Assembly (NCBI RefSeq): GCF_000756385.1 | Contig: NZ_JNFC01000001.1 | Span: 124,001-188,000 of the forward strand | Reading direction: 5' to 3' | Length of the DNA stretch: 64,000 nucleotides | Source: Sphingopyxis sp. LC363 | GTDB taxonomy: Bacteria; Pseudomonadota; Alphaproteobacteria; Sphingomonadales; Sphingomonadaceae | Part shown: piece by piece, positions 19,213 to 34,978 of the stretch | Position numbering within the stretch: position 1 is the stretch's first letter | Layout of the letters: every line of letters begins with the position of its first letter | Translations under genes and position numbers: made by a program | The notes under the pieces: model-generated | The model's database searches: none | What the model was told of the DNA's origin: nothing | What the model saw: only the letters and a program-made list of their open reading frames with translations

Positions 19213-22200
19213 ATGGTAACAGGGGGCATGACCCAAAGCCCCGACCGCGCCCCCCTCCGCACCTTGGCCCGCCGCAGCGAAGCCGACATCGTCGCCGGTC
19301 TGCGGACCGCGCTCGCAACCTCCCCGGCGAGCGTCGAGGCGGTCACCCGCCGCGGGCTCGAACTGATCCGCAAGGCGAAGGCCGACGGCGAGCGCGAGAC
19401 GCTCGTCGCGCAGTTGATGAACCGCTATCGCCTCTCGACCGAAGAGGGCGTCGTGCTGATGTGCCTTGCGGAGGCGCTGCTGCGCGTCCCCGACAATGCG
19501 ACCGCCAATGCGCTGATCCGCGACAAGATCGCCGGACGCCACTGGGCCGAGGGCGACGATGACGACAGCCCGCTGGTCGTTGCGCTGTCGGCGCGCGGGC
19601 TGTCGCTCGGTTCTGCGACGTTGATGCTCGATGCAATGGGCAGCAAGGCGAACCCGCTCAGCCTGCTCAAATCGATGATCCGCCGCTCGGGCGAGCCGGT
19701 GATCCGCCAGGCGGCGCTCGCGGCGATGAAATTGCTCGGCCAGCAATTCGTGATGGGCGAGACGATCGACGCGGCGGTCAAGCGCGCCGACAAGGAAAAG
19801 AGCGAACTCGCAAGCTTCGACATGCTCGGCGAGGCGGCGCGTACCGCCGAGGATGCCACGCGCTACTATGACAGCTATGCGAATGCCATCGCGCGCATCG
19901 GCAAGGGCGCGAAGCCCGGCGATCCGCACGCCAACCACGGCATTTCGATCAAGCTGTCGGCGCTCCACCCGCGCTACGAATATCTGCAAGCAGCGCGCGT
20001 GCGCGATGAGCTGATCCCGCGCGTGATCGAACTCGCGAAGGCGGCGCGCACGGTGAACATCCCGCTGATGATCGACGCCGAGGAAAGCGACCGGCTCGAA
20101 CCGCATATGGACGTGTTCGCGGCGCTGATCGACGCCGGGATCGCCGATGGCTGGACCGGGCTCGGCATCGTGATCCAGGCGTATCAGAAGCGCGCGCCCG
20201 CGGTGATCGACTGGCTGGCCGAGCGAGCCCGCGCGCGCGGGGTCAAACTGTCGATGCGCCTCGTCAAGGGCGCTTATTGGGATACCGAGATCAAGCGCGC
20301 GCAGACGCTGGGCTTGAGCGACTTTCCGGTGTTCACCGCGAAGCTCCACACCGATCTCAACTATATGCGCTGCGCGCAGCTGCTGCGCGACTGTCAGGAC
20401 TGCATCTATCCGGCGTTCGCGAGCCATAATGCGATGACACTCGCCTTCGTCGCCGAACTGTTCGCGGGCGCCGATTACGAGCTGCAGCGGCTGCACGGCA
20501 TGGGCGAGGGCGCGCACGACGCGCTCGTAGCGTTGTTTCCGCCGCCGCGCCCGGTGCGCGTCTATGCGCCGGTCGGCACGCATCGCGATCTGCTCGCCTA
20601 TCTCGTCCGCCGCCTGCTCGAAAATGGCGCCAACTCGAGCTTCGTGCATCAATTCTCCGACCCCGACGTCAGCGCCGAACAGCTCGCGGTCGACCCGCGC
20701 AGCGTGGCGAGCCCGGCGGTGCCCGTCATCGCGACGGGGCTCGGCCTGTTCGATCCGGTGCGGCGCAATTCGCGCGGCTACGACCTTGGCGATCCGGGCG
20801 TGTCCGAGGCGCTGGTCGCGGCGATCGGCGCGGCGCGGCGGAGCGATATGGTCGCGGCGCCGATCGTCGGCGGCGTCGCGCGGGACGGCAAGGCCGAGCC
20901 GGTGCGGAATCCCGCGACGGGCGCGGTCGTCGGGCGGGTGATCGAGGCCGACGCGGCGACGGTCGCCGATGCCGTGACCGCGGCGCGCGCGGCGCACGAC
21001 AATTGGAGCCTCGCGGGGGGCGCCTTCCGCGCCGAACGCCTCGAACGCGCCGCCGACCTGCTTGAGGAGCATGACGCGCTGTTTCTCGGCCTCGCGATCG
21101 ACGAAGCGGGGAAGACTCTCGTCGATGCGGTCGCCGAGGTGCGCGAGGCGGTCGATTTCCTCCGCTACTATGCCGCGCAGGCGCGCGCCGATTTCACTTA
21201 CCCGGTCGCGCTTCCCGGCCCGACGGGCGAGCGCAACGAGCTGATGCTCGAGGGCAAGGGCGTATTCGTTTGCATCAGCCCGTGGAACTTCCCGCTCGCG
21301 ATCTTCCTCGGGCAGGTGTCGGCGGCGCTCGCCGCGGGCAATGCGGTGCTCGCGAAGCCCGCCGAGCAGACCCCGCTGATCGCCCATGCCGCGATCGAAC
21401 TCCTGCTCGAAGCCGGCATCCCCGGCGATGTGCTTGCCTATCTTCCCGGCCGCGGCGAAAGTGTCGGCGCGGCGCTGACGAGCCACGACGACATCATCGG
21501 CGTCGCCTTCACCGGATCGACCGAGGTCGCGCGAATGATCAACCGCAGCCTCGCCGGGCGCGACGGGCCGATCGCGACGCTGATCGCCGAAACCGGCGGC
21601 GCGAACGCGATGATCGTCGATTCGACCGCGCTTCCCGAACAGGTTGCGCGCGATGCCGTCGCGTCGGCCTTCCAGTCGGCGGGCCAGCGCTGTTCGGCGC
21701 TGCGCCTGCTTTGCGTGCAGGAAGATGTGGCGGGCACGATGATCGAAATGGTCGCGGGCGCGATGGCCGAGCTCAATATCGGCGATCCCTCGGTGCTGTC
21801 GACCGACGTCGGCCCGATCATCGACGAGGAGGCGCGGGCGAACATCGCCGCCTATGTCGCCGAAGCGCGCGCCGCGGGCCGCGTGATCGCCGAGGCCGGG
21901 CGGACGAACATGCCCGCGGGCGGCCATTTCGTGCCGCCCGTCCTGATCCGGCTCGACCATGTAACTGACTTGAAGCGCGAGATTTTCGGTCCGGTGCTGC
22001 ATGTCGCGACGTGGAAGGGCGGCGAACTCGATGCGCTGATCGATGCGATCAACGCCTCGGGCTATGGGCTGACCTTGGGCGTCCACACGCGCATCGACGG
22101 CGTCGCGGCGCACATCGCGGCGCGCGCGGCGGTCGGCAACGTCTATGTCAATCGCAATCAGATCGGCGCCATCGTCGGGTCGCAGCCCTTCGGCGGGCGC

Positions 22201-22323
22201 GGCCTGTCGGGGACGGGCCCCAAGGCCGGTGGTCCGCATTACCTGCACCGCTTCGCCGAGGAAAAGTCGATCTCGACCGACATAACCGCGGCGGGCGGCA
22301 ATGCGGCGCTGATGGCGGGGTGA
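19213..22323 (+). CDS. putA: Bifunctional proline dehydrogenase / L-glutamate-gamma-semialdehyde dehydrogenase
   Basis: A 1,036-residue PutA that oxidises proline to glutamate in two steps. The proline dehydrogenase barrel covers about residues 150-450 (IDAEESDRLEP, RLVKGAYWDTEIKRAQ), and the aldehyde dehydrogenase about 520-1000, with the general-base Glu in LIAETGGANAM and the catalytic Cys in GQRCSALRLL. It lacks the N-terminal ribbon-helix-helix repressor domain of long PutAs. The start at 19213 is the first ATG; another at 19228 follows AGGGGG too closely. Product glutamate feeds the nearby glutamate dehydrogenase step. Confidence 0.97.
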   Translation: MVTGGMTQSPDRAPLRTLARRSEADIVAGLRTALATSPASVEAVTRRGLELIRKAKADGERETLVAQLMNRYRLSTEEGVVLMCLAEALLRVPDNATANALIRDKIAGRHWAEGDDDDSPLVVALSARGLSLGSATLMLDAMGSKANPLSLLKSMIRRSGEPVIRQAALAAMKLLGQQFVMGETIDAAVKRADKEKSELASFDMLGEAARTAEDATRYYDSYANAIARIGKGAKPGDPHANHGISIKLSALHPRYEYLQAARVRDELIPRVIELAKAARTVNIPLMIDAEESDRLEPHMDVFAALIDAGIADGWTGLGIVIQAYQKRAPAVIDWLAERARARGVKLSMRLVKGAYWDTEIKRAQTLGLSDFPVFTAKLHTDLNYMRCAQLLRDCQDCIYPAFASHNAMTLAFVAELFAGADYELQRLHGMGEGAHDALVALFPPPRPVRVYAPVGTHRDLLAYLVRRLLENGANSSFVHQFSDPDVSAEQLAVDPRSVASPAVPVIATGLGLFDPVRRNSRGYDLGDPGVSEALVAAIGAARRSDMVAAPIVGGVARDGKAEPVRNPATGAVVGRVIEADAATVADAVTAARAAHDNWSLAGGAFRAERLERAADLLEEHDALFLGLAIDEAGKTLVDAVAEVREAVDFLRYYAAQARADFTYPVALPGPTGERNELMLEGKGVFVCISPWNFPLAIFLGQVSAALAAGNAVLAKPAEQTPLIAHAAIELLLEAGIPGDVLAYLPGRGESVGAALTSHDDIIGVAFTGSTEVARMINRSLAGRDGPIATLIAETGGANAMIVDSTALPEQVARDAVASAFQSAGQRCSALRLLCVQEDVAGTMIEMVAGAMAELNIGDPSVLSTDVGPIIDEEARANIAAYVAEARAAGRVIAEAGRTNMPAGGHFVPPVLIRLDHVTDLKREIFGPVLHVATWKGGELDALIDAINASGYGLTLGVHTRIDGVAAHIAARAAVGNVYVNRNQIGAIVGSQPFGGRGLSGTGPKAGGPHYLHRFAEEKSISTDITAAGGNAALMAG

Positions 22324-22620: not shown

Positions 22621-23586
22621 TTACGCGCCCGGCACGCCCAGTAGCTGCGCCTGCGCCGTCAACCGCCCAGCCGCCGCCGGGTTCGCCGCGATGCCGTCCT
22701 TCAGCGCCTGCGCGGCCTTCGCCGTTTCGCCCAGCGTCATGCGGCTGCGCATCAGCATGATCCAGCGGTCGACGTCGGCCGGATTGGCCTTCAGCTTGGC
22801 TTCGAGGCCGCTCACCATGCCTTCGATCATCGCGTCCTGCTGCCCCTTGGGGAGCTGCGACGCGGCTTCCATGTCGGCGCGGCTCGGCCCCGGGATCGCG
22901 CGCGCGGCGACGGGCATTTCGTCGGGCGTCAGCGCGCGCGGCTGCGTGGCGGCGAGGCGCGCGGCGACCTCGATTTTGTGGATCTGGCCGACCTGTTCGA
23001 TCGTCCGGCGCAGATCGGCTTCCCACGGCGCCCCCTGCGGCGTGTCGGCGAGCAGCGCGAACCAGTCGTCGATCGCGCCTTTGTGATCGCCGCCGATGTC
23101 CTTTTTCACCGCAAGGAAGTAGCGCGCGCGCGGATCCTTCGCGTCGAGCGCGATCGCCTTGTCGAAAGCATCCGAAGCGGCGGCGGGCATCGGGTCGCTG
23201 TCGCTCGCCATCACCCGCGCTTCGCCGAGCGCCGACCAGAGTCCCGCCGATTCGGGCGAAAGCGCGACGGCCTTTTCATAGGCGGCCGCCGCGCCCGCGA
23301 AATCGCCGAGGTCGAATTTCGCCGCGCCGAGCGTCGTCCACGCGTCGGCACTGTCCGGTTCGCGCTGCGTCCGCGCTTCGAGGTCGGCGAGCTGGTCGGA
23401 CGGCGCGGCGGCGGTTTCGCTGGCCGGACCCGTGGCGGACGGTGCGGAATCGCGCCAGATCGCATAGCCGATGGCCGCCGCGAGCAGCACGAAAGCGGCG
23501 ATCAATATCATGCGATTGTTTCGCGTCATGCCGCCGGTCATGCCCCCGCCATCCTGTTGCTCTCGCTCATTTTTACCCCTCATCAT
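22621..23586 (-). CDS. TPR protein of CcmI/CycH type
   Basis: A protein of about 321 residues with one N-terminal membrane helix (RMILIAAFVLLAAAIGYAIW), then tetratricopeptide repeats (LADLEARTQREPDSADAWTTLGAAKFDLGDFAGAAAAYEKAVALSPES and following), a linker, and a C-terminal periplasmic domain with further helical repeats. This layout matches the C-terminal part of CcmI/CycH, which presents apocytochrome c for haem attachment. It is not next to other ccm genes, but multihaem cytochrome genes are 2-8 kb away. The start is uncertain: ATGs at 23586, 23541 and 23529 are all possible, none with a strong ribosome site. Confidence 0.7.
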   Translation of the reverse strand: MMRGKNEREQQDGGGMTGGMTRNNRMILIAAFVLLAAAIGYAIWRDSAPSATGPASETAAAPSDQLADLEARTQREPDSADAWTTLGAAKFDLGDFAGAAAAYEKAVALSPESAGLWSALGEARVMASDSDPMPAAASDAFDKAIALDAKDPRARYFLAVKKDIGGDHKGAIDDWFALLADTPQGAPWEADLRRTIEQVGQIHKIEVAARLAATQPRALTPDEMPVAARAIPGPSRADMEAASQLPKGQQDAMIEGMVSGLEAKLKANPADVDRWIMLMRSRMTLGETAKAAQALKDGIAANPAAAGRLTAQAQLLGVPGA

Positions 23587-23727
23587 ACGGCGCACGAAAA
23601 ATGCCGGCTGTGCGCTCCGTCATATTGCCTTTGCCCGGCGATGGTGTAGCCTTTGGTCCATAAGGTCGGTCAACGATAAAATCGTCAGGGGTCGCACCGG
23701 CTTTCCCAGTCAACAGGGGAGGGGTGC

Positions 23728-25083
23728 ATGGCAGTTTCGGATCACGTCGATTTTGCGACGTTCATGGAAGGCGTGAAGCGGCGCAACCCGGGGCAACCCG
23801 AGTTCGTGCAGGCGGTGCAGGAAGTGTCGGAGGACATTTTCGACTTCATCGCCGACAAGGAAGAATATCACGCGCAGCAGATATTGCGGCGTATCGCCGA
23901 ACCCGACCGGGTGGTGTCCTTCCGCGTCTGCTGGGAGGACGACAACGGCAATATCCGCGTCCAGCGCGGCTGGCGCGTCCAGAACAACAATGCGATCGGA
24001 CCCTATAAGGGCGGGATCCGTTTCCACCCGAGCGTCACCGAAAGCGTGCTCAAATTCCTGGCGTTCGAACAGACGTTCAAGAACGCGCTGACCGGGCTGC
24101 CGATGGGCGGCGGCAAGGGTGGGTCGAATTTCAACCCCAAGGGCAAGAGCGTGCGCGAGATCATGCGCTTCTGCCAAAGCTTCATGACCGAGCTTTATCG
24201 CCACATCGGCGCCGACATCGACGTGCCCGCGGGCGACATCGGCGTCGGCGGGCGCGAGATCGGCTTCATGTTCGGCCAGTATAAGCGGATCACCAACGAA
24301 TTCACCGGCGTGCTCACCGGCAAGGGGCTCGAATGGGGCGGCTCGCTGATCCGCACCGAGGCGACGGGCTATGGCGCGGTCTATTTCCTCGCCAACATGC
24401 TCGCGGCGAAGGGGCAGGATCTGGTCGGCAAGAGCGCGGTGATTTCGGGATCGGGCAATGTCGCGACGCACGCCGCCGAAAAGGTCGTGCAACTCGGCGG
24501 CAAAGTGCTGACGCTGTCCGATTCGGGCGGCTTCATCCACGATCCCGACGGGATCACGCAGGACAAGATCGACTGGGTGAAAGCGCACAAGACGCATCGC
24601 CGCGGGCGGATCGAGGAATATTGCGAAGAGTTCAAGACCGCGACCTTCACGCCCGGCAAGACGCCGTGGGGCGTGAAGTGCGACGTGGCCTTGCCCTGCG
24701 CAACGCAGAACGAACTGCTCGGCGAGGATGCCAAGACGCTGGTCAAGAACGGCTGCATCGCGGTCAGCGAGGGCGCCAACATGCCGACCAACCTCGAGGG
24801 CGTGCACGTCTTCAAGGATGCGAAGATCATGTTCGCGCCGGGCAAGGCCGCCAACGCCGGCGGCGTCGCGGTGTCGGGACTCGAAATGAGCCAGAACAGC
24901 GGCCGCCGCGCGTGGAGCGAGGGCGAACTCCAGCAGATGCTCAAGGACATCATGGACGGTATCCACAAGAATTGCCTGACCTATGGCGATCAGGGCAATG
25001 GCTATATCGACTATGTGAAAGGCGCCAATATCGCGGGATTCAAGAAGGTTGCCGACGCGATGCTGGCTTTCGGGGTGGTGTAA
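23728..25083 (+). CDS. gdhA: NADP-specific glutamate dehydrogenase
   Basis: A 451-residue hexameric-type glutamate dehydrogenase converting 2-oxoglutarate and ammonium to glutamate. Recognised motifs: GPYKGGIRFHPSV, the catalytic-lysine region LPMGGGKGGSNFNPKGKS, DVPAGDIGVGGREIGFMFGQYK, and the dinucleotide loop SGSGNVATHAAEK. Length and N-terminus fit the NADP-type bacterial enzyme. AGGGGAGGGG precedes the ATG. It is a single gene here, with the cytochrome cluster starting 50 bases downstream. Confidence 0.97.
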   Translation: MAVSDHVDFATFMEGVKRRNPGQPEFVQAVQEVSEDIFDFIADKEEYHAQQILRRIAEPDRVVSFRVCWEDDNGNIRVQRGWRVQNNNAIGPYKGGIRFHPSVTESVLKFLAFEQTFKNALTGLPMGGGKGGSNFNPKGKSVREIMRFCQSFMTELYRHIGADIDVPAGDIGVGGREIGFMFGQYKRITNEFTGVLTGKGLEWGGSLIRTEATGYGAVYFLANMLAAKGQDLVGKSAVISGSGNVATHAAEKVVQLGGKVLTLSDSGGFIHDPDGITQDKIDWVKAHKTHRRGRIEEYCEEFKTATFTPGKTPWGVKCDVALPCATQNELLGEDAKTLVKNGCIAVSEGANMPTNLEGVHVFKDAKIMFAPGKAANAGGVAVSGLEMSQNSGRRAWSEGELQQMLKDIMDGIHKNCLTYGDQGNGYIDYVKGANIAGFKKVADAMLAFGVV

Positions 25084-25133: not shown

Positions 25134-26627
25134 ATGACGGCGCACGCTGGGAAGGAGCGCGGCGATCGGCCTCGGGCGGCATTTGCCGCCCGTCGTCCCA
25201 CGCGCGCGGCATTTGCCGCCCGTCGTCCCACGCGCGCGGCATTTGGCGTTCTGGCGGCGATGTTGCTCGCGCTCGCCATTGCGGCGTTCGCCTTTGCGCC
25301 GCCCGCGCGGTCGCAGGGCGAAAGCGGCGCGCGCTACACCGGCGTCGCTTCGTGCGCGGGGTCGACCTGCCACGGCCGGATGGAAGGCGACGGCACAATC
25401 GTCCGCCAGGACGAGCTGATGAAATGGCAGGAGCCCTCGACCCCCGGCGGTGCGCACAGCCGCGCCTGGGCGGTCCTCAATAACAATCGCAGCCAGTTCA
25501 TCGCGCGCAATCTCGGCATCGGCGATCCGTCGAAGGCGCAGATGTGCCTCGGCTGCCACAGCACCGCGGGCACCGCGCGCGCCGTTCCCGCCGAGGACGG
25601 CGTCGGCTGCGAATCGTGTCATGGCCCTGCGGGCGGATGGCTCGCGAGCCATTATGCCGGCGTCGGCACCAACGCCGATCCCGACCGCGAAATGCGCGAA
25701 AAGCATCTCGCCAACCTGTCGGCGGGGCTCAAGAAGCTCGAGGATCCGATGGTGCGCGCGGGCGTTTGCGTCGACTGCCACTTCGGTTCGGCCGCCGACG
25801 GTCAGTTCGTGACGCACCGCATCATGGCGGCGGGACATCCGCGCATCTCGTTCGAGCTCGACCTTTTCTCGTCGCTGCAGGCGCATCATCAGGAGGATGC
25901 CGATTACGGCTGGCGCAAGTTCGGCGCGCCGAACCGGCGTACCGATCATGTCCAGATGTGGGCGGTGGGGCAGGCGACCGCGATCGAGCGCAGCCTCGCG
26001 CTGTTCCAGACGCGGCGCGGGACCGAGGGGATATTCCCCGAATTTTATTTCCTCGACTGCCACAGCTGCCACCGCCGCATCTTCGACCAGGCGAAGCCGG
26101 TGCGCACCGGGCTCGACAATGTTGGGCGCAATCTTCCCGAGGGCATGCCGCCCTATAATGACGAGAATCTGATCATGCTCGCTGCCGCGGCGCGCATGGC
26201 CTCGCCCGCGCTCGCCGACCAGCTCGCGGCGCGCACCGCGGCGTTCCACAAGGCGATGGCGGCTGACCGGCAAAGCGCGGTGCAGGCCGCGGCACAGCTG
26301 TCGCAGACGGTCGCGGCGCTCAAGCGCGCCTTCGCGTCGCGCAGCTTCTCGGGCGCCGACGCCTTCGCGATGGTGGACGCGATTTCGGCGAAGGCGATCA
26401 GCGATCGCTACACCGACTATTCCGGGTCGCAGCAGGCCGTCATGGGCGTCGATACCCTGCTCAACGCGATGGTGTCGTCGGGGCGCGTCACGGTCGGCGC
26501 GGCGGCGGGCATCCGCAGTGACATCGATCGCGCTTACGCGGCGGTGAAGGATCCCAACGCCTATAAACCGTCCGAATTCCAGGCCTCGTTCGGCAGCGCG
26601 GTGCGCGCGATCGGGGCGCTGCGGTAA
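25134..26627 (+). CDS. Exported five-haem c-type cytochrome
   Basis: A 497-residue protein with five haem motifs: CAGSTCH (CX4CH, C74-H80), CLGCH (138), CESCH (159), CVDCH (212) and CHSCH (about 306). A signal peptide-like helix lies at about residues 38-60 (GVLAAMLLALAIAAFAFAPPARSQ). Spacing resembles cytochrome c554-like periplasmic electron carriers. The start is doubtful: from 25134 the first 37 residues include a 10-residue tandem repeat (RAAFAARRPT) encoded by a REP-like repeat; an ATG at 25260 is the alternative but lacks a basic n-region. The C-terminal 190 residues are helical and haem-free. First gene of a four-gene run. Confidence 0.85.
   Translation: MTAHAGKERGDRPRAAFAARRPTRAAFAARRPTRAAFGVLAAMLLALAIAAFAFAPPARSQGESGARYTGVASCAGSTCHGRMEGDGTIVRQDELMKWQEPSTPGGAHSRAWAVLNNNRSQFIARNLGIGDPSKAQMCLGCHSTAGTARAVPAEDGVGCESCHGPAGGWLASHYAGVGTNADPDREMREKHLANLSAGLKKLEDPMVRAGVCVDCHFGSAADGQFVTHRIMAAGHPRISFELDLFSSLQAHHQEDADYGWRKFGAPNRRTDHVQMWAVGQATAIERSLALFQTRRGTEGIFPEFYFLDCHSCHRRIFDQAKPVRTGLDNVGRNLPEGMPPYNDENLIMLAAAARMASPALADQLAARTAAFHKAMAADRQSAVQAAAQLSQTVAALKRAFASRSFSGADAFAMVDAISAKAISDRYTDYSGSQQAVMGVDTLLNAMVSSGRVTVGAAAGIRSDIDRAYAAVKDPNAYKPSEFQASFGSAVRAIGALR
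25173..25245. repeat. 30-base tandem repeat with hairpin, at the 5' end of the five-haem cytochrome gene
   Basis: About 2.3 copies of a 30-base unit (25177-25206, 25207-25236, part at 25237 onward). The unit includes the hairpin CGGGCGGCA-TT-TGCCGCCCG (25173-25192). It lies between gdhA and the signal-peptide codons of the cytochrome, and if translated gives an Arg/Ala-rich repeat. Confidence 0.75.
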
Positions 26628-26631
26628 GATC

Positions 26632-28605
26632 ATGCGAAGCAAGACCTCTCTTTTCCGTTCGGCCGCCTTTGCTGCGATGGCTGCGCTGCTGCTCACCTCT
26701 TGCGGCGGCGGCGGCGGCGGAACGCCGACCCCGACACCCATCCCAACACCGACCCCGACGCCCACGCCGACGGGCGGGCTCTACACCCCGCCCGCCGTCG
26801 CGGCGCTGACCACCGCCGACGTCGAACGCGTGCTCGCGCAGGCGATCGCGGAGGCGCAGGCGCGGGGCCTGCCGTCGGTGATCGCGGTGACCGACCGCGT
26901 CGGCAATGTGCTCGGCGTCTTTCGCATGACCGGCGCGCGCGCCACCGCGACGACCTCGCCCGCGCCCAATGGCGACAATATCGACGCGCAGAACGTCACC
27001 TTCCCCGCCGAGGGGGGCGCGATCGCCAAGGCGGTGACCGGCGCGTACCTCTCGAGCGGCGGCAACGCCTTTTCGACGCGCACCGCGAGCCAGATCGTCC
27101 AGGAACATTTCCCACCCGCGCCGACGACCGCCGGGCTCGAAAGCGGGCCCCTGTTCGGCGTGCAGTTCAGCCAGCTGCCGTGCAGCGACCTCGCGGCGCG
27201 CTTCGGCGCAGCGGGTGCGGCGGCGCTGATCGGGCCGAAACGCTCGCCGCTCGGCCTCGCCGCCGATCCGGGCGGGCTGCCGCTCTACAAGAATGGCGTG
27301 CTCGTCGGCGGCATCGGGGTGATGGGCGACGGCGTTTACGGCAGCGACCCCAATATCCTCGATGTCGACAATGATCCCGAGGAGTATATCGCGCTTGCGG
27401 GGACGCGCGGGTTTGAGGCGCCGGGCGCGATCACCGCCGACCAGATTGCCGTCGACGGCACGACCCTGCGTTTCTCCGACGCGACCTTCGCCGGAGTGAT
27501 GACGAGCGGCGGCGCGAGTTTCGCGAGCCTCAACGGAACCGCGGGCAGTCTCGTGGCGGTCATCGGCTATGCCAATGCGTCGATCACCGCGGGGACCGCC
27601 TATGGCACCGAAGCGTCGGGCATTCGCGCGTCGACCGCCGCCGAATTTTCGAACCGCGACGCCTTTGTGCTCAGCGACGGCAGCGGCGCGAACCGCTACC
27701 CGATCCGCGCCGGCACCGACGGCGCGAGCAACAGCGCGCCGCTGACCACCGCCGAAACGCGCGCGGTGCTCGAAGAGGCGTTCGCGGTGATGAGCCGCGC
27801 GCGCGCGCAGATCCGCCGCCCGCTCGACAGCCGCGCGCAGGTGACGATCAGCATCGTCGACACGCATGGCGCGGTGCTCGGCATCGTGCGTTCGCCCGAC
27901 GCGCCGATTTTCGGCACCGATGTCAGCCTGCAGAAGGCGCGCACCGCCGCCTTCTTCTCGGGCGCGCAGGCGGGGGCTGAACTGAACGCCAACGCCAGCG
28001 CCGACGTGCGCCAATTCGTCGCTGCGACGCGGACATTCCTGAGCGATCCGGCGGCGCTCACCGGCACGATCGCCTTCGCCGACCGTTCGGGGGGCAATTT
28101 GTCGCGGCCCTATTTCCCCGATGGCGAGGTCGGCCGGCCGCACGGCCCGCTGTCGCGCCCGATCGCACAGTTCAATCCTTTCTCGACCGGGCTGCAGTCG
28201 GCGCTGATCATCGGCAATCTGGGGCAGCATCTCGGCTTCGTGTCGGGCGCCAGTCCGACCGACACGCCGGTGCGCTGCACGACCTTGCCCGACGTCGCGC
28301 CGGGGCGGAACCGGCTCCAGAACGGCATCCAGATCTTCCCCGGATCGGTGCCCATCTATCGCGGCAACAGCCTTGTCGGCGCGATCGGCGTGTCGGGCGA
28401 TGGCATCGACCAGGACGATATGATCAGCTTTTTGGGGACGCACAACGGCGGCGCGCGCGTCGGCGGCATCGGCAATGCGCCGAAAGCGATCCGTGCCGAC
28501 ACGATCGTCGTGGGCGTCGGCGCCGGCGTGCGCCTGCGTTATATCAGCTGCCCCTTCGCCCCCTTCCTCGACACCGCGCAGCAGAATGTCTGCGAGGGGC
28601 TATAG
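26632..28605 (+). CDS. Lipoprotein with two HbpS/GlcG-like domains
   Basis: A 657-residue lipoprotein: lipobox LLTSC (C24), a Gly run, a Pro-Thr linker (PTPTPIPTPTPTPTPT), then two related halves. Each half has the DUF336 (HbpS/GlcG) pattern: LTTADVERVLAQAIAEAQARGLPSV...TDRVGNVLGVFRM with IAKAVTGAYLSS in the first, and LTTAETRAVLEEAFAVMSRARAQ...DTHGAVLGIVRS with LQKARTAAFFSGA in the second; both end with a 'PLYKNGVLVGGIGVMGDG' type strand. HbpS binds haem, others bind small ligands. It starts 4 bases after the cytochrome and abuts the next gene, so it belongs to the cytochrome operon. Confidence 0.8.
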   Translation: MRSKTSLFRSAAFAAMAALLLTSCGGGGGGTPTPTPIPTPTPTPTPTGGLYTPPAVAALTTADVERVLAQAIAEAQARGLPSVIAVTDRVGNVLGVFRMTGARATATTSPAPNGDNIDAQNVTFPAEGGAIAKAVTGAYLSSGGNAFSTRTASQIVQEHFPPAPTTAGLESGPLFGVQFSQLPCSDLAARFGAAGAAALIGPKRSPLGLAADPGGLPLYKNGVLVGGIGVMGDGVYGSDPNILDVDNDPEEYIALAGTRGFEAPGAITADQIAVDGTTLRFSDATFAGVMTSGGASFASLNGTAGSLVAVIGYANASITAGTAYGTEASGIRASTAAEFSNRDAFVLSDGSGANRYPIRAGTDGASNSAPLTTAETRAVLEEAFAVMSRARAQIRRPLDSRAQVTISIVDTHGAVLGIVRSPDAPIFGTDVSLQKARTAAFFSGAQAGAELNANASADVRQFVAATRTFLSDPAALTGTIAFADRSGGNLSRPYFPDGEVGRPHGPLSRPIAQFNPFSTGLQSALIIGNLGQHLGFVSGASPTDTPVRCTTLPDVAPGRNRLQNGIQIFPGSVPIYRGNSLVGAIGVSGDGIDQDDMISFLGTHNGGARVGGIGNAPKAIRADTIVVGVGAGVRLRYISCPFAPFLDTAQQNVCEGL

Positions 28606-30540
28606 ATGATGATGACGGGGGGCAGCCTTTGGCCGATCATCGCGACGCTCGCGGCGCAGGGTGCGCCGGGCGCCGATGTCGCGCCGCCGCCGCCCGCGCC
28701 CGAAGAGCCGCCGGTCGCGGAAAACGCCGCACCCGCCGAGCGGCCCGCCGAAGAGCTGATTCCGCCGCCGCCGCCGGTCGACTGGCAGGACAGGATCAAG
28801 GATGATCTGGTCACCGAGATCATCGAGGGCCGCCGCCGTCCCGGCTATCGTCCCGATCTTCCCGATGCGCTGAGCCAGGACAATGTCGGCGCGCTGCGCC
28901 CGCCGCCGCCGCAGGCCTTTCCCGGGATGGAGGATCAACTGCCGATCCCCGACCGCTGGCGCCTGATCGAGACATTGGGCGTGGTCAAGGAACGCTGGTT
29001 CGATCCCTATAACCAGAACACCTACAAGGGCGACCGGCCGATCGACCGCAGCAAGGTCAAATGGCTTCCGATCAAGGGCGACGACTGGTTCATCGTCGCC
29101 AATGCCGTGTCCGACACCGTGTTCGAACCGCGCACCTTTCCTATCCCCGTCGGCGTCCAGACGACCGAGCGGCCGGGCAGCCTCGACGTGTTCGGCAAGG
29201 ACCGCAGCTTCGTCTTCGCGCAGACCTTCATCGCGGGCGCGGCGCTGATCAAGGGATCGACCGCGTTCAAGCCGCCCGACATCGAATATCGCGTCACGCT
29301 CGCGTACCAAGCCAATTATGTCGACGTGCCCGAACGGCGCGTGCTCGACGTGCGCCCGTCGAAGGCGAGCCATCGTTACGACAGTTTCCTGGGGTTGCAG
29401 GAACTCTTCGTCGACAAGCATCTCGGCAACACGTCCGACCGCTATGATTTCTATTCGGTCCGCCTCGGCATCCAGCCGTTCCAGAGCGATTTCCGCGGCT
29501 TCCTGTTCAACGACAGCCAGCTCGGCATCCGCCTGTTCGGCAACCGCGACAACAACCGATTCCAATATAATCTCGCCGCCTTCTGGCGGCTCGAAAAGGA
29601 CACGAACAGCGGCCTGAACGACATTACGCAGACGCCGCGTGACGATTTCGTGCTCACCGCCAATCTCTATCGCCAGGATTTTCCGGTCGTCGGGCTGACC
29701 AGCCAGATCAGCGTGACGTACAATATGAACCGCGAAAAGAACGACGTGCAGATCGACCACAATGGTTTCCCGGTGCGGCCGGCGCTGCTCGGCGACCTGC
29801 GCGGGCGCGAATATGACGTGGTTTACCTCGGTTACAGCGCCGACGGGCGGATCGGGCGGATCAACCTCACCGCGAGCTTCTATGCCGCGCTGGGCGAGGA
29901 TCGGAACAGTTTCTTCACGAGCAAGCCCGCCGAAATCCGCGCGGGCTTCGGCGCGGTCGAACTCAGCTACGATCATGACTGGATGCGTTTCCGCCTGTCG
30001 GGGCTCTACGCGACCGGCGACGGCGATCCGTATAACAGGACCGAGGGCGGGTTCGACGCGATCTTCGAAAACCCGATCTTCGGCGGTGCCGACACAAGCT
30101 ACTGGATCCGCCAGACGATCCCCTTCGCGGGCGGCGGGCGCGTCATCGCGATCAACGGGCGCAACGGCATATTGAACTCGCTGCGCTCGTCGAAGGAGGA
30201 GGGGCAGTCGAACTTCAACAACCCCGGCACCGTCTTCGTCGGCGCGGGCGCCGATTTCGACCTGACCCCCGAATTTCGCGTCAGCACCAATTTCAACCAT
30301 CTGTGGTTCGAAAATACCTTGAGCCTGCAGGCGCTGCGCGTGGAAGGGTCGATCCCAAAGGATATCGGCTTCGACCTGTCGGTAGCGGCGATCTGGCGGC
30401 CCAAGGCGACGCAGAATATCGTCGGGCGCCTCAGCGCTGCGGTGCTGCTGCCCGGCAAGGGCTTCAAGGATTTGTTCGACAACAAGCAGAAGAATGACGC
30501 TTACGTCTCCATCCTCGCCAATGTGATCCTGAGCTTTTAG
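28606..30540 (+). CDS. Predicted outer-membrane beta-barrel protein
   Basis: A 644-residue protein with a short hydrophobic start, a Pro-rich stretch (about residues 25-55), and then alternating beta segments rich in aromatic and charged residues (RYDFYSVRLGIQPFQSDFRG, FQYNLAAFWRLEK, SQISVTYNMNREK, GRINLTASFYAALGED, FRVSTNFNHLWFENTLSLQAL). It ends ...VSILANVILSF, with the terminal Phe typical of outer-membrane barrels. Start codons ATGATGATG follow the previous stop with no gap. Size is near that of MtrB-type barrels (about 700 residues), but I see no direct MtrB signature. Its place between a lipoprotein and a decahaem cytochrome suggests a conduit role. Confidence 0.75.
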   Translation: MMMTGGSLWPIIATLAAQGAPGADVAPPPPAPEEPPVAENAAPAERPAEELIPPPPPVDWQDRIKDDLVTEIIEGRRRPGYRPDLPDALSQDNVGALRPPPPQAFPGMEDQLPIPDRWRLIETLGVVKERWFDPYNQNTYKGDRPIDRSKVKWLPIKGDDWFIVANAVSDTVFEPRTFPIPVGVQTTERPGSLDVFGKDRSFVFAQTFIAGAALIKGSTAFKPPDIEYRVTLAYQANYVDVPERRVLDVRPSKASHRYDSFLGLQELFVDKHLGNTSDRYDFYSVRLGIQPFQSDFRGFLFNDSQLGIRLFGNRDNNRFQYNLAAFWRLEKDTNSGLNDITQTPRDDFVLTANLYRQDFPVVGLTSQISVTYNMNREKNDVQIDHNGFPVRPALLGDLRGREYDVVYLGYSADGRIGRINLTASFYAALGEDRNSFFTSKPAEIRAGFGAVELSYDHDWMRFRLSGLYATGDGDPYNRTEGGFDAIFENPIFGGADTSYWIRQTIPFAGGGRVIAINGRNGILNSLRSSKEEGQSNFNNPGTVFVGAGADFDLTPEFRVSTNFNHLWFENTLSLQALRVEGSIPKDIGFDLSVAAIWRPKATQNIVGRLSAAVLLPGKGFKDLFDNKQKNDAYVSILANVILSF

Positions 30541-30567
30541 GGCGATGACATTGAACCTATCACCCTT

Positions 30568-30679
30568 CCCGTATCCCCGAACGAAGACGAGGGGCCCATT
30601 CGAGCGAAGCGAGAATCCTCCAGGAAGCTGGCCTCGACTTCGCTCGGCCTGGCCCCTCGTCTTCGCTCGGGGATACGGG
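30568..30679. repeat. REP-type inverted repeat before the decahaem gene
   Basis: Arms 30568-30596 and 30651-30679 (29 bases, one mismatch) around a loop that itself contains CGAGCGAAGCGAG/CGACTTCGCTCG. Contains the sphingomonad hairpin core CTCGTCTTCG...TCGGGGATACGGG. It occupies the intergenic space and also the first codons of the longest possible reading frame of the next gene. Confidence 0.85.
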
Positions 30680-33600
30680 GTGGGAGGCCGACTTCTCCTT
30701 CTCTTCGCCTTCATTCTGACGTCGCTGGCAATCGGCGCACAGGTCAGCCGTGCGGCCGAGGAGGAAAAGCCGGTCAAGGTCGAATATCGCTTCACCCCGC
30801 CCGCGCCGCGCGAGCAGGGCGACGCCGAGGTCGCGACGAAATCGAACGGCTGCTATTCGTGCCACACGCGCACCGACCAGCCGTCGATGCACGCAACCCC
30901 CGCGGTGAAGCTCGGCTGCACCGACTGCCACGGCGGCGACGCCAGCCAGCGCGGGACACCCGGCCTTGGCTACCAGCATCCGACGAACAAGGCGGTGATG
31001 AAGCTCGCGCACCCGCAGCCGACGCTGCCCGGCGCGTGGCACGACAGTTCGGCGAATCCCGAGCGGAGCTATACCTTGCTCAACAAGGAATCGCCCGAAT
31101 TCATCCGCTTCGTAAACCCCAGCGACTATCGCGTCGCGCGCGAGGCGTGCGGTGCGTGCCATCTCGAAGTGATCGAGGCGACCGAACGCTCGATGATGTC
31201 GACCGGCGCGATGCTGTGGGGTGGCGCGGCGTACAACAATGGCATCGTCCCGTATAAAAACTATGTGTTCGGCGAGGCTTATACGCGCACCGGCGAACCC
31301 GCGTGCATCCTTTCGCCCTCTTCGCGGCTGACCGCCGAGGAATATAAGGAAGCGTGCAAGCCGGGCTTCGGTTTCGACAAGATACTGACCGACGAAGAGA
31401 AAAAGCGCGGCGCGCTCGCGAAAATGTATCCGCTGCCGCGCTGGAGCGTGCTGCCGCCCGGCGATGTCTTCCGCGTCTTCGAGCGCGGCGGGCGCAACAT
31501 CAACACGCAATTCCCCGAAATCGGCCTGCCCAACCCGACGGGCAGCATCCAGCGGCTCGAGGAGCCCGGGCGCCCCGACCTCAAACAATCGAACCGCGGT
31601 CCCGGCACGGGCCTGCGCGTCTCGATCCCCGTGCTCAACATCCACAAGACGCGCCTCAACGATCCGCTGTCGTGGTTCATGGGGACGAACGACCAGCCCG
31701 GCGACTATCGCCATTCGGGCTGTTCGGGCTGCCACGTCGTCTATGCCAACGACCGCGAGCCGCGGCACAGCCTGACCTACGCCAAATTCGGCCGCGACGG
31801 CGAAACCGCGACAATCGATCCGACGATCGCCGAAAAGAAACGGAAGCCCGCGGGCTATGGCGACGGGCATGGCGACGACGCGCACGGCACTGAAGACGGC
31901 CACGAAGCTGTCGGCGGCCATGGTTCGTTGATCGATCCCGCCGATCCCGACGTCCCGGCGCGCCCCGGATCTCCGGCGCGCGGCGAATCGGGCCATCCGA
32001 TCAGCCACGCCTTCACCCGCGCGATTCCGACCTCGCAGTGCATGTCGTGCCACATGCACCAGCCGAACATCTTCCTGAACTCCTACCTCGGCTACACGAT
32101 GTGGGATTATGAATCGGACGCGCCGCAGATGTGGCCGGGCCCCGAAAACACGGCGCCGCGCCCGCCGGGGATGAGCGACGAGGAGTATCGGAAGAAATAC
32201 AAGCAACAGCGCTATCCGACCGCCGCCGAAGTGCATCAGGTGCTCGAACGCAATCCCGAGGCGGCGGCGGCACGCGGACTGTGGGCCGATGTCGAATTCC
32301 TGCGCGACGTCTATGACGTCAACGACAGCAACAAGGACACGCAATTCGCCGACTATCACGGCCATGGCTGGAATTTCCGCGGCATCTTCAAGCGCGACCG
32401 GAACGGCAATCTGCTGAACGCCGACGGCAATATGGCGACTTACGGCACCGATACGGCGAACATCGTCGACCCGAAGGACCCCGAAAAGTGGCGCAAGAGC
32501 TGCAGCCACTACAGCGATCTGAAGGAACGCGATCTTTGCCTGTCGAGCGCCGATCCCGGCAAACCCGGCGTCGAGGGCAAGTTCGTGCCGCCCGGGCTCA
32601 ACCCCGGCAAGACGGTCCATATGATGGACATTCACGCCGAAAAAGGGATGCAATGCGCCGACTGCCACTTCGCGCAGGATAGCCACGGCAATGGCTATAT
32701 CCAGGGCGAAGTCGCGAACGCGGTCGAGATCGGCTGCAAGGATTGCCACGGCACCGCCGATGCGTTCCCGAATCTGCTGACCTCGAACGTTGCCGCGCGG
32801 CCGCAGGGGACCAACCTCGCGCTGCTCCGCAACCCCGACGGGCGCCGACGCTTCGAATTCCAATATAATGACGATGCCGAGGTGATCGGCCTCATTCAGC
32901 GCTCGATCGTCGATCCGAAGCTCGAATGGCAGGTCAGCCTCGTCAAGCAGGCGGTGACCCCGGGACCGCATTTCAACGCCAAGGCCGCGCGCGCCAAGCT
33001 GATGGCGCGGGCGGGCAGCGAGGACGGCAAGTTCGAGTGGGGGCCGGGGGTCGCCAAGGAAGACCGCGCGCACGGCGACGAGAAGATGACCTGCTTCACC
33101 TGTCACCTGTCGTGGACGACGAGCTGCGGCGGCTGCCATTTGCCGATCGAGGCGAACTGGAAAACCAAGATGCACCATTTCGAGGGTGAGGAGACGCGGA
33201 ACTTCGCGACCTACAACCCGCAGGTGGCGCGCGACGAAATGTTCCAGCTCGGCCGGCACCAGCTCACCAAGCCCGGCGAGCCGGGCCCGAACGGCGAGGT
33301 GCGCGGCATCATCACCCCGGTCCGCTCGACCTCGGCGCTGGTGCTGTCGTCGACGAACATCAATCGCGAGCGCATCTATGTGCAGCAGCCGCCGGTCTCG
33401 TCGGCGGGCTATTCGAGCCAGGCCTTTGCGCCGCATTTCCCGCACACGGTCCGCCGGTCGGAAACCAAGCAATGTTCGGACTGCCATCTGTCCGCCGCCG
33501 ACGACAATAATGCGATCATGTCGCAGCTGCTGCTGCTCGGCACCAATTTCGTCAATTTCGTCGGCCTCAACGTCTGGTCAGGGATGGAGGATGGCTTCCA

Positions 33601-34978
33601 GGCGACGCGCGTCACCGAATGGGACGAGCCGCAGGCGGTCATCGGCAGCTATCTCCACCGCTATTCCTACCCCGATTATTGGAAGCTTCACGTCGATCAA
33701 AACGGCCGCGAGCTCAAGCAATGGGTGCGCGGCAAGACTTTCGACAAAAAGGGATCGGGCGAAACGCAGGCGCTCGAGGAGTTCGCCAATATCGTGCAGG
33801 ACACGAGCGGCCGGGTGAACTGCCTCCAGCAGCGCGGCGAATATATGTATGTCGCCGAGGGCAAGGGCGGCTTCCGCGTCTATGACGTCGCGTCGATCGG
33901 CAACAAGGGTTTCTCCGAACGCATCGTCCGTGCCCCCTTCTCGCCGATGGGACACGATACGCATGTGAAGACCAAGAACGCGACCTGCATGGCGATCGCA
34001 ACGACGCAGCCGATCAGCGTGTCGCGCAACGAGAATATCGTGAAAAATTTCCCCGAGAACCACGAACAGGTGATGCACGACATCTATCGTTACGCCGCCA
34101 TCACCGACAGCGTCGAGGGGCTGGTGCTGGTCGACATCGACACGATGGCCGACGGCGAATTCCGCAACAACAAGCTGAAACGCGCGCTGACGTGGAATGA
34201 AGGCAATGTGCTCGCGGGGGCGCGGCACATCACGCTCGCGGGCAGCATCGCCTATGTCACCACCGACGCGGGGCTCGTCGCGCTCGACCTGACGGTGCCG
34301 CTCCAGCCGAAGGTTACGGCGCAGCTGCCGCTGACCGATGCGCGCGCGAGCGCGGTGCAGTTCCGCTATCTCTGGGTCACCGACGCCGAGGGGGTAAAGC
34401 TGTTCGACGTCACCGATCTGGCGCAGCCGGTCGCGGTGCCGTCGGGCACGGTGCGGCTCACCAACGCGCGGAAGATCTATATCGCGCGCACCTATATGTA
34501 TGTCGCGGCAAAGGCGGACGGGCTCGTGATCGTCGATGTGACGCGCCCCGCGGCGCCGATCGTCTGGCCGGGGCTGACCTTCGGCGGTACGCTCAACGAT
34601 GCCGAGGATGTGATCGTCGCGTCGACCAACGCCTCGCTGTTCGGTTATGTCGCCGACGGGCGGAACGGTATCAAGGTGCTCCAGCTCACCAGCCCCGACA
34701 ACCCCGGCCTCTATGGCTTCTCGCCCAGGCCGACCCCCGAACTCATCGCCTGGGCAAAGACCCCGTCGCCCGCGCTCGCGCTGTCGAAGGGGCTCGACCG
34801 CGACCGCGCGGTCGACGAAACGGGCGGGCAGATGGCGGTGTTCGGCCGCCTCGGCTCACGCCCCTTCACGCGCGGCGAGATGGAGAAGCTGTTCCTGAAC
34901 AGCAAGGGGACGGTGTACAAGGTTCGCGACGAGGTCGACGAAAGCGCGTGGCGACCGCCGCTGCTGTATGCGAATTGA
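30680..34978 (+). CDS. Decahaem cytochrome c with C-terminal LVIVD-repeat propeller
   Basis: A 1,432-residue exported protein. It has ten CXXCH motifs (CYSCH, CTDCH, CGACH, CSGCH, CMSCH, CADCH, CKDCH, CFTCH, CGGCH, CSDCH) spread over the first 1,000 residues, a His/Asp/Gly-rich insertion (GHGDDAHGTEDGHEAVGGHG), and a C-terminal region with LVIVD-type repeats (LVLVDIDT, LVALDLT, VKLFDVT, LVIVDVT), expected to fold as a beta-propeller. I chose the GTG at 30680 because it gives a clean signal peptide (GGRLLLLFAFILTSLAIGAQVSRA). The longer frame from 30545 would translate the REP repeat. Fourth gene of the cytochrome run; likely an electron-transfer or surface redox protein. Confidence 0.85.
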   Translation: MGGRLLLLFAFILTSLAIGAQVSRAAEEEKPVKVEYRFTPPAPREQGDAEVATKSNGCYSCHTRTDQPSMHATPAVKLGCTDCHGGDASQRGTPGLGYQHPTNKAVMKLAHPQPTLPGAWHDSSANPERSYTLLNKESPEFIRFVNPSDYRVAREACGACHLEVIEATERSMMSTGAMLWGGAAYNNGIVPYKNYVFGEAYTRTGEPACILSPSSRLTAEEYKEACKPGFGFDKILTDEEKKRGALAKMYPLPRWSVLPPGDVFRVFERGGRNINTQFPEIGLPNPTGSIQRLEEPGRPDLKQSNRGPGTGLRVSIPVLNIHKTRLNDPLSWFMGTNDQPGDYRHSGCSGCHVVYANDREPRHSLTYAKFGRDGETATIDPTIAEKKRKPAGYGDGHGDDAHGTEDGHEAVGGHGSLIDPADPDVPARPGSPARGESGHPISHAFTRAIPTSQCMSCHMHQPNIFLNSYLGYTMWDYESDAPQMWPGPENTAPRPPGMSDEEYRKKYKQQRYPTAAEVHQVLERNPEAAAARGLWADVEFLRDVYDVNDSNKDTQFADYHGHGWNFRGIFKRDRNGNLLNADGNMATYGTDTANIVDPKDPEKWRKSCSHYSDLKERDLCLSSADPGKPGVEGKFVPPGLNPGKTVHMMDIHAEKGMQCADCHFAQDSHGNGYIQGEVANAVEIGCKDCHGTADAFPNLLTSNVAARPQGTNLALLRNPDGRRRFEFQYNDDAEVIGLIQRSIVDPKLEWQVSLVKQAVTPGPHFNAKAARAKLMARAGSEDGKFEWGPGVAKEDRAHGDEKMTCFTCHLSWTTSCGGCHLPIEANWKTKMHHFEGEETRNFATYNPQVARDEMFQLGRHQLTKPGEPGPNGEVRGIITPVRSTSALVLSSTNINRERIYVQQPPVSSAGYSSQAFAPHFPHTVRRSETKQCSDCHLSAADDNNAIMSQLLLLGTNFVNFVGLNVWSGMEDGFQATRVTEWDEPQAVIGSYLHRYSYPDYWKLHVDQNGRELKQWVRGKTFDKKGSGETQALEEFANIVQDTSGRVNCLQQRGEYMYVAEGKGGFRVYDVASIGNKGFSERIVRAPFSPMGHDTHVKTKNATCMAIATTQPISVSRNENIVKNFPENHEQVMHDIYRYAAITDSVEGLVLVDIDTMADGEFRNNKLKRALTWNEGNVLAGARHITLAGSIAYVTTDAGLVALDLTVPLQPKVTAQLPLTDARASAVQFRYLWVTDAEGVKLFDVTDLAQPVAVPSGTVRLTNARKIYIARTYMYVAAKADGLVIVDVTRPAAPIVWPGLTFGGTLNDAEDVIVASTNASLFGYVADGRNGIKVLQLTSPDNPGLYGFSPRPTPELIAWAKTPSPALALSKGLDRDRAVDETGGQMAVFGRLGSRPFTRGEMEKLFLNSKGTVYKVRDEVDESAWRPPLLYAN

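Follow-up and report, generated by a model that had tools for sequence, protein, structure and literature searches.

A four-gene multihaem locus of Sphingopyxis and its possible place in a trans-envelope electron route

Do four adjoining genes for multihaem and putative outer-membrane proteins in a sphingomonad encode one end of an electron route to the cell surface, and of what kind would such a route be? The genes lie at 25134-34978 of the 64,000-nucleotide stretch of Sphingopyxis sp. LC363 DNA analysed here (contig NZ_JNFC01000001.1; the window), where an earlier reading of the bare sequence (the original prediction) had seen a five-haem cytochrome, a lipoprotein, a barrel and a ten-haem protein in a row and had suggested a redox system distinct from known conduits; the row is at the place given, and the redox assignment is supported. 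Sphingomonads are known as ordinary aerobes, in which a multihaem pathway is unexpected, and the known outward conduits start from the quinone pool and have mostly been studied in anaerobic metal reducers. Our answer, held with middling confidence, is that the four genes would form the periplasmic and outer-membrane half of a seven-gene trans-envelope electron route that is NAD(P)H-fed, cyclic-nucleotide-gated and distinct from MtrCAB. The electron-input half, with genes for a flavoprotein/FeS protein, a b-type membrane protein and an FHA-decahaem protein, lies elsewhere in the genome, beyond the window.

The four window genes

All four genes, which we call PENTA, HBPS, BARREL and DECAPROP, are on the plus strand, with 4 bases between PENTA and HBPS and 0 between HBPS and BARREL, and their dN/dS against three relatives is 0.06-0.32. 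PENTA (25134..26627) encodes a c554-like pentahaem cytochrome of 497 amino acids (aa) that does hold five haem sites, four CXXCH and one CX4CH (PF13435, 38.5 bits, cut-off 20.8); it carries a hydrophobic segment at its N-terminus and is probably exported. The same motifs recur in 20/20 relatives printed and in the four complete, correctly framed relatives from further genomes (4/4). HBPS (26632..28605, 657 aa) matches the HbpS/GlcG family PF03928 with 83.6 bits over three stretches and has a lipobox-like LTSC at Cys24, a cysteine invariant among 14 aligned sequences, and we regard it as the probable lipoprotein with HbpS-like domains that had been predicted. It shares the PF03928 domain with Streptomyces HbpS and GlcG, but here the domain is repeated and sits in a probable lipoprotein within a cytochrome operon. 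ARAGORN also called a tRNA-Thr within the HBPS gene, on the opposite strand (27674-27754), which is probably a false positive. BARREL (28606..30540) encodes a cysteine-free predicted outer-membrane beta-barrel of 644 aa that ends, as foreseen, in Phe; its 20 printed relatives end in Phe or Tyr.

DECAPROP (30680..34978) encodes a decahaem protein with a C-terminal LVIVD propeller (PF08309, 35.7 bits). The apparent open reading frame (ORF) at 30545-34978 has 1477 codons, lengthened by about 130 bases of repeat DNA that lie in frame between BARREL and DECAPROP (plus strand, approximate limits 30545..30690); from the start at 30680 the product has the 1,432 residues originally proposed, and this is likely where the gene begins. 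Codons ~5-55 of the longer ORF resemble other sites of the same genome with 46-67% aa identity, and in many relatives DECAPROP begins directly at the end of the BARREL gene. The similar repeat sites are G000:C12:37146, C73:100556, C6:72103, C72:47328, C26:20696 and C1:167662, and some relatives (e.g. L040 and L051) carry different N-terminal extensions at the position of the repeat.

Ten CXXCH motifs are present in the 1477-aa ORF, for which about 0.014 would be expected by chance (estimated from its 26 Cys and 45 His). A scan of a genome collection returned 529 DECAPROP relatives, the best 80 of which were kept, all sphingomonads as far as their titles tell. The ten motifs were found in 20/20 relatives printed, in 7/7 from further genomes and in 7/7 from the class of genome G492 (presumably Gammaproteobacteria). 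In an alignment of 38 relatives, the ten haem-bound His and 16 more are kept in at least 97% of the sequences; identity between DECAPROP and 13 relatives is 70-86%. Other genomes encode distant proteins with 12 CXXCH and a length of 783-854 aa, in neighbourhoods that lack the four genes (L120:8044-10425, L122:7209-9560, L123:6902-9349 and L124:7177-9741).

An inner module and its co-occurrence with the four genes

In G492 and in G500 the four genes run on into three more, FADFES, CYTB and FHADECA, and the window genome holds these three, in the same order, on another contig (C17). FADFES (794-836 aa in G492 and G500) joins a pyridine-nucleotide flavoprotein domain to two cyclic-nucleotide-binding domains and [4Fe-4S] domains, CYTB (~290 aa) is weakly b561-like, and FHADECA (607-645 aa) combines an FHA domain with ten CXXCH. 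Conservation of the three was assessed over 34 loci, leaving out sequences shorter than 0.8 of the median length (2 FADFES, 1 FHADECA). FADFES has two GxGxxG sites and exactly 16 Cys kept in at least 95% of 32 sequences; these fall into four groups, by which it would class as a ferredoxin-type protein with four [4Fe-4S] clusters. It matches PF00027 (cNMP_binding) with 110.5 bits (cut-off 27.5) over two stretches, with phosphate-binding cassettes FGE...R at 423 and 548 whose Glu and Arg are conserved, and domain and intact cassettes together mark it as a predicted cyclic-nucleotide-binding protein. Its C-terminus, with 16 conserved Cys for four clusters, resembles the CISM-type FeS subunits HydN, DmsB, NrfC and ArrB, but in FADFES this part is joined in one chain to a YpdA-like flavoprotein and a pair of cyclic-nucleotide-binding domains.

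In FHADECA, ten CXXCH are found in 32 of 33 sequences and nine in the other, the Gly-Arg and His of the FHA domain are conserved, and a hydrophobic segment at residues ~140-160 separates the FHA domain from the haems in 4/4 sequences checked (one with a second segment). The best match of the FHA domain among solved structures is GarA/OdhI, a resemblance that is tempting given the glutamate dehydrogenase gene nearby and may be a generic FHA match. CYTB keeps five His in at least 95% of 34 sequences and has two His pairs 14 residues apart. Counted over the whole chain, the cofactor sites would thus be those of one flavin, four FeS clusters and 25 c haems, with probably two b haems besides.

The His-pair spacing of CYTB, typical of ferric reductase/NOX membrane domains, and the haem-related family of HBPS raise the explanation that the system is a cell-surface NAD(P)H oxidase making superoxide from O2, or a reductase of Fe(III) or haem for iron uptake in which HBPS binds haem. 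We consider this decidedly improbable: no Ferric_reduct Pfam match was reported for CYTB, 25 c-type haem sites seem far above the need of such an enzyme, and the two annotated plasmid neighbourhoods described below (pMSHV and pMC4), at which no search for such genes was aimed, name no siderophore or TonB gene.

Beside the inner module on C17 lies a phosphodiesterase-like gene (NCBIfam SpdA 135.6 and CpdA 81.2 bits, both under cut-off), and such a gene is present in 21/21 sphingomonad loci that hold the inner module. Upstream of the module (L165, i.e. G000:C17:1-12000, and L131:1108-8880) are genes for a CHAT protein, a CHASE2-cyclase, a 256-aa protein and a ShlB/FhaC-type secretion protein, and a 2590-aa ORF. 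TpsA- or ShlB-like matches also flank the system in pMSHV (L162), L040, L067, L069 and G399 (L127).

The original prediction had singled out gene order in relatives as a check, and this order proved to be firmly kept. PENTA-HBPS-BARREL-DECAPROP is colinear on one strand in 68/68 sphingomonad loci with enough flank (those of the kept loci in which 6.5 kb or more precede the start of the match), and the order extends beyond sphingomonads. When 397 genomes of the phylum were searched with a profile, full DECAPROP relatives beyond the family appeared in G399 and G500 (same class) and in G492 (another class). Loci of the class of G492 were read in 6 of its 9 DECAPROP genomes (7 loci), with G492 read separately and G707 and G734, which have DECAPROP and FADFES on different contigs, outside the reading. 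The order FADFES-CYTB-FHADECA-HBPS-BARREL-DECAPROP was found at 7/7 of these loci, with FADFES directly by CYTB in 5/7; PENTA lies at the DECAPROP end in 5 and at the opposite end, past FADFES, in 1 (L183), and was not found at 1 of the 7 (L182).

Co-occurrence was followed in 197 genomes of the order (taken as Sphingomonadales, after the named DECAPROP relatives), in the 397 genomes of the phylum and in 276 genomes of the class of G492. The E-value limits were 0.001 (order and phylum) and 1e-30 (class of G492) for DECAPROP and 1e-100 for FADFES. In the order, DECAPROP is present, by a match covering the protein, in 48/197 genomes, FADFES in the identical 48, and neither in 149; G073 (4.1e-12, haem region alone) was set aside. 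Counted as present among the 48 were DECAPROP of G124 and G174 and FADFES of G174, with one in-frame stop each, and FADFES of G127, which is in two pieces. At least six genera (g1, g2, g3, g4, g6 and g15) include some genomes with both genes and others with neither, so the pattern is not that of a single inherited block. As a control, reaction-centre genes (PF00124) occur in 31/197 genomes, 15 of them among the 48 against ~7.6 expected from the totals, an excess, yet no tight link to phototrophy.

In the phylum sample, 13/13 genomes with a full DECAPROP also have FADFES, which occurs in 17 in total; nine genomes with short haem or propeller stretches were set aside (G202, G210, G262, G297, G315, G367, G390, G468 and G536). 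In the class of G492, DECAPROP is found in 9 of 276 genomes and FADFES in 12, which include all 9; G653 has two copies of each. Pooled, 59/59 distinct DECAPROP genomes carry FADFES (the 48, G399, G500 and G492, and eight further).

The two halves need not be neighbours. Among 69 sphingomonad loci with at least 7.5 kb downstream, 21 have both halves together, facing each other, with a tetratricopeptide repeat (TPR) gene beyond; 26 share the RelA/SpoT neighbour of the window; and 22 have neither RelA/SpoT nor the inner module within the flank. That unrelated genes came together by chance or history could explain why the halves are on different contigs in the window genome and why 22/69 loci, besides the 26 of the Sphingopyxis arrangement, have no inner module in the flank. 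We find this scarcely credible, given the 48/48 co-occurrence despite separation, the presence of both or absence of both within at least six genera, and the identical gene order in a second class.

Mobile elements carry the system as well. DECAPROP was found on 13 of 72,556 plasmid records (12 Sphingobium, 1 Sphingopyxis), 2/13 being typed conjugative, pMSHV and pMC4; the four-gene block is on both and the inner module also on pMSHV. On these two plasmids the parts bear only the annotations hypothetical protein, heme-binding protein, (multiheme) c-type cytochrome or cytochrome c family protein, cytochrome c3 family protein and cyclic nucleotide-binding domain-containing protein.

The proposed route and its alternatives

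In the route that we propose, FADFES would take electrons from NAD(P)H in the cytosol and pass them through FAD to four [4Fe-4S] clusters, the b-type CYTB would carry them through the membrane, membrane-anchored FHADECA and then PENTA would relay them over the periplasm, and DECAPROP, placed together with BARREL and HBPS at the outer membrane, would reduce an external acceptor. Electron entry would be switched by a cyclic nucleotide, a gating suggested by the two binding domains on FADFES and by the linkage of some loci to nucleotide cyclase and phosphodiesterase-like genes, among them the CHASE2-cyclase gene between FADFES and CYTB in both G653 copies. Glutamate dehydrogenase (GDH) and the nearby PutA could feed NADPH. 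Gene content, motifs, conservation and co-occurrence can be read directly from the genomes compared. From them we infer the NAD(P)H donor, the carrier order, the outward direction, the surface site, the gating and the roles of GDH and HBPS, and it is mainly the location and the acceptor that hold our confidence in the whole picture at its middling level.

The outward direction is favoured by the pyridine-nucleotide flavoprotein at the cytosolic end. Multihaem chains can in general operate in both directions, and sphingomonad hosts are mostly described as aerobes, which would suit a flow in which DECAPROP takes electrons from an external donor (a mineral, humic matter or a partner cell) and the other carriers deliver them to NAD(P)+ or the respiratory chain. 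Such inward flow appears improbable to us, as the carriers end in the cytoplasm with a soluble pyridine-nucleotide flavoprotein and not a quinone or oxidase partner, the recurrent adjoining GDH gene suits donation of reducing power, and reduction of NAD(P)+ would require low-potential external donors.

Several results weigh against the outward, gated route. CYTB scores 20.3-25.4 bits against b561 PF01292, under the curated cut-off of 30.1. At the two G653 loci FADFES lies ~13 and ~6 kb away from CYTB; the spacer holds, in both and on the opposite strand, genes for a CHASE2-cyclase and a FecR-like protein. The gating genes are inconstant: no phosphodiesterase-like gene was found at the seven loci read in the class of G492, and CHASE2 at 2 alone. 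FADFES occurs without DECAPROP in six genomes (G197, G229, G337, G568, G591 and G741); in G337, HBPS and BARREL follow beyond FHADECA until the contig ends, and FADFES of G741 is a fragment at a contig start. On the side of the outer membrane, BARREL is modelled as an 18-stranded, AlgE-like barrel with no evident cytochrome sheath, DECAPROP has no N-terminal Cys for a lipobox (the first Cys of the ORF is at 103), and its structure model, from the alignment of 38 relatives and used for no fold search, is of low confidence (pTM 0.26, mean pLDDT 42).

The AlphaFold2 model of BARREL has a pTM of 0.65 and a mean pLDDT of 62.8, with residues 1-142 at low confidence. A Foldseek search with this model gave AlgE2 as best match (E 1.2e-16), followed by chitoporin, MOMP and OprD-class porins, and MtrB was not among the best 50 of 836 matches. 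BARREL has no Pfam match, and a search of the PDB with BARREL and DECAPROP sequence profiles returned none. PF11854 (MtrB_PioB) has no match in the whole genome, in a search that passed the cut-off in 0/14 control genomes, with one below it. AlgE is itself an 18-stranded barrel, but it is only ~10% identical to BARREL, which matches no sequence family and whose partner genes encode cytochromes. The model thus supports the barrel fold originally predicted, but not an MtrB-like sheath, the nearest structures being AlgE and OprD-class pores; this comes close to the ordinary porin out of contact with a cytochrome that the original prediction had named as counting against a conduit. On the model, BARREL is credible as an outer-membrane barrel, but not one of the MtrB kind.

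This resemblance to AlgE and OprD-class pores, together with a DECAPROP that has a propeller and no lipobox, also suits a reductase facing the periplasm or outer membrane for a small substrate (an oxyanion, a peroxide or an organic compound), fed by the same inner module, with DECAPROP catalytic and the barrel a pore for substrate or product. The best NCBIfam relative of DECAPROP, ExtM of selenite/tellurite operons, points the same way, though with 66.4 bits against a cut-off of 800. We regard such a reductase as unlikely, if the most serious of the competitors. The 16 extra conserved His would suffice as second ligand for all ten haems, which fits pure electron transfer, and in G568 (L152:12169-18277) the inner module stands with two pentahaem genes of the same family beside a different predicted exported protein and a different pentahaem protein, which looks like a swappable exit and not one fixed enzyme. 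Of these last two, one has 542 aa with Phe as the last residue and is not detectably related to BARREL (hhalign probability 0.3%), and the other has 593 aa and five CXXCH; together with the two pentahaem genes they are possibly an alternative outer module; in G229, FADFES and cytochrome b are fused. The two variants suggest, from their gene content, a constant entry and relay with different exits. A tellurite role in particular is unsupported: according to PMC5488091, the tellurite reductase purified from Erythromonas ursincola KR99 has subunits of 62 and 55 kDa, which do not match DECAPROP.

Returning to the outward route, its nearest counterparts are MtrCAB and the porin-cytochrome conduits of Shewanella and Geobacter, with which it shares a barrel gene adjoining multihaem cytochrome genes, exported multihaem proteins and a membrane-anchored multihaem relay. 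That the parts differ from MtrCAB, as first suspected, holds in the family models. The MtrB barrel has 26 strands, whereas BARREL is not MtrB_PioB and has 18 in the model; PENTA falls outside the DmsE/MtrA family (TIGR03508, 13.8 bits, cut-off 192.2); the OmcA/MtrC model TIGR03507 gave no reported match to DECAPROP up to an E-value of 0.1, and DECAPROP is without a lipobox; and the entry here would be a cytosolic NAD(P)H-type flavoprotein, with no NapC/NirT match in FHADECA. The Ext selenite/tellurite operon of Geobacter (NCBIfam ExtM/N/O) is alike, by family names, in its multihaem cytochromes, FeS subunit and b-type cytochrome, but DECAPROP matches ExtM (NF040943) in short haem stretches alone, and that operon is not known to contain a propeller, HbpS or cNMP flavoprotein.

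A trans-envelope multihaem electron route is thus known as a kind, and it is the predicted entry enzyme, possible regulators, barrel and decahaem-propeller protein that set this one apart from the described conduits tested. We found no description of the system in the open-licence literature searched, for which result lists were in part incomplete. One may tentatively go further, to a claim that we think falls somewhat short of probable: that this is a second, independent design of trans-envelope conduit in Proteobacteria, common in sphingomonads, with a gated NAD(P)H flavo-FeS enzyme, a b-type cytochrome, 25 c haems to the surface, a link to NADP-GDH, and fixed inner and exchangeable outer modules. 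If so, surface electron exchange would be more widespread and more tightly regulated than assumed (48/197 genomes of the order, about a quarter, and 9/276 of the second class, scattered), and sphingomonads could dump or exchange electrons outside the cell on second-messenger command. The system is a defined, deletable gene set in culturable aerobes.

Genes next to the block

Directly before the four genes lies the GDH gene (23728..25083, plus strand), whose counterpart in S. indica pMC4 is annotated as NADP-specific. GDH is a recurrent neighbour, present in 39/80 loci and directly upstream of PENTA in 32; in G500 it is part of the operon itself, in G399 it is close to the inner module, and at one G653 locus as well as in G574 it adjoins FADFES. 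Loci that illustrate this recurrence are L118/L128, L117/L156, L184 and L189.

On the minus strand at 22621..23595 lies the gene for a TPR protein of the CcmH/CycH-like cytochrome c biogenesis type (PF23914, 67.1 bits, cut-off 42), presumably accessory and the same CcmI-like gene that had been noticed earlier near the cytochromes. It travels with the system, a relative standing beside the flavoprotein gene in 20/21 sphingomonad loci whose flank includes the inner module. The TPR-GDH-cytochrome block is adjoined, in the window (19213-22323) and likewise in S. indica pMC4, by the gene for PutA (proline to glutamate), which may supply glutamate to GDH.

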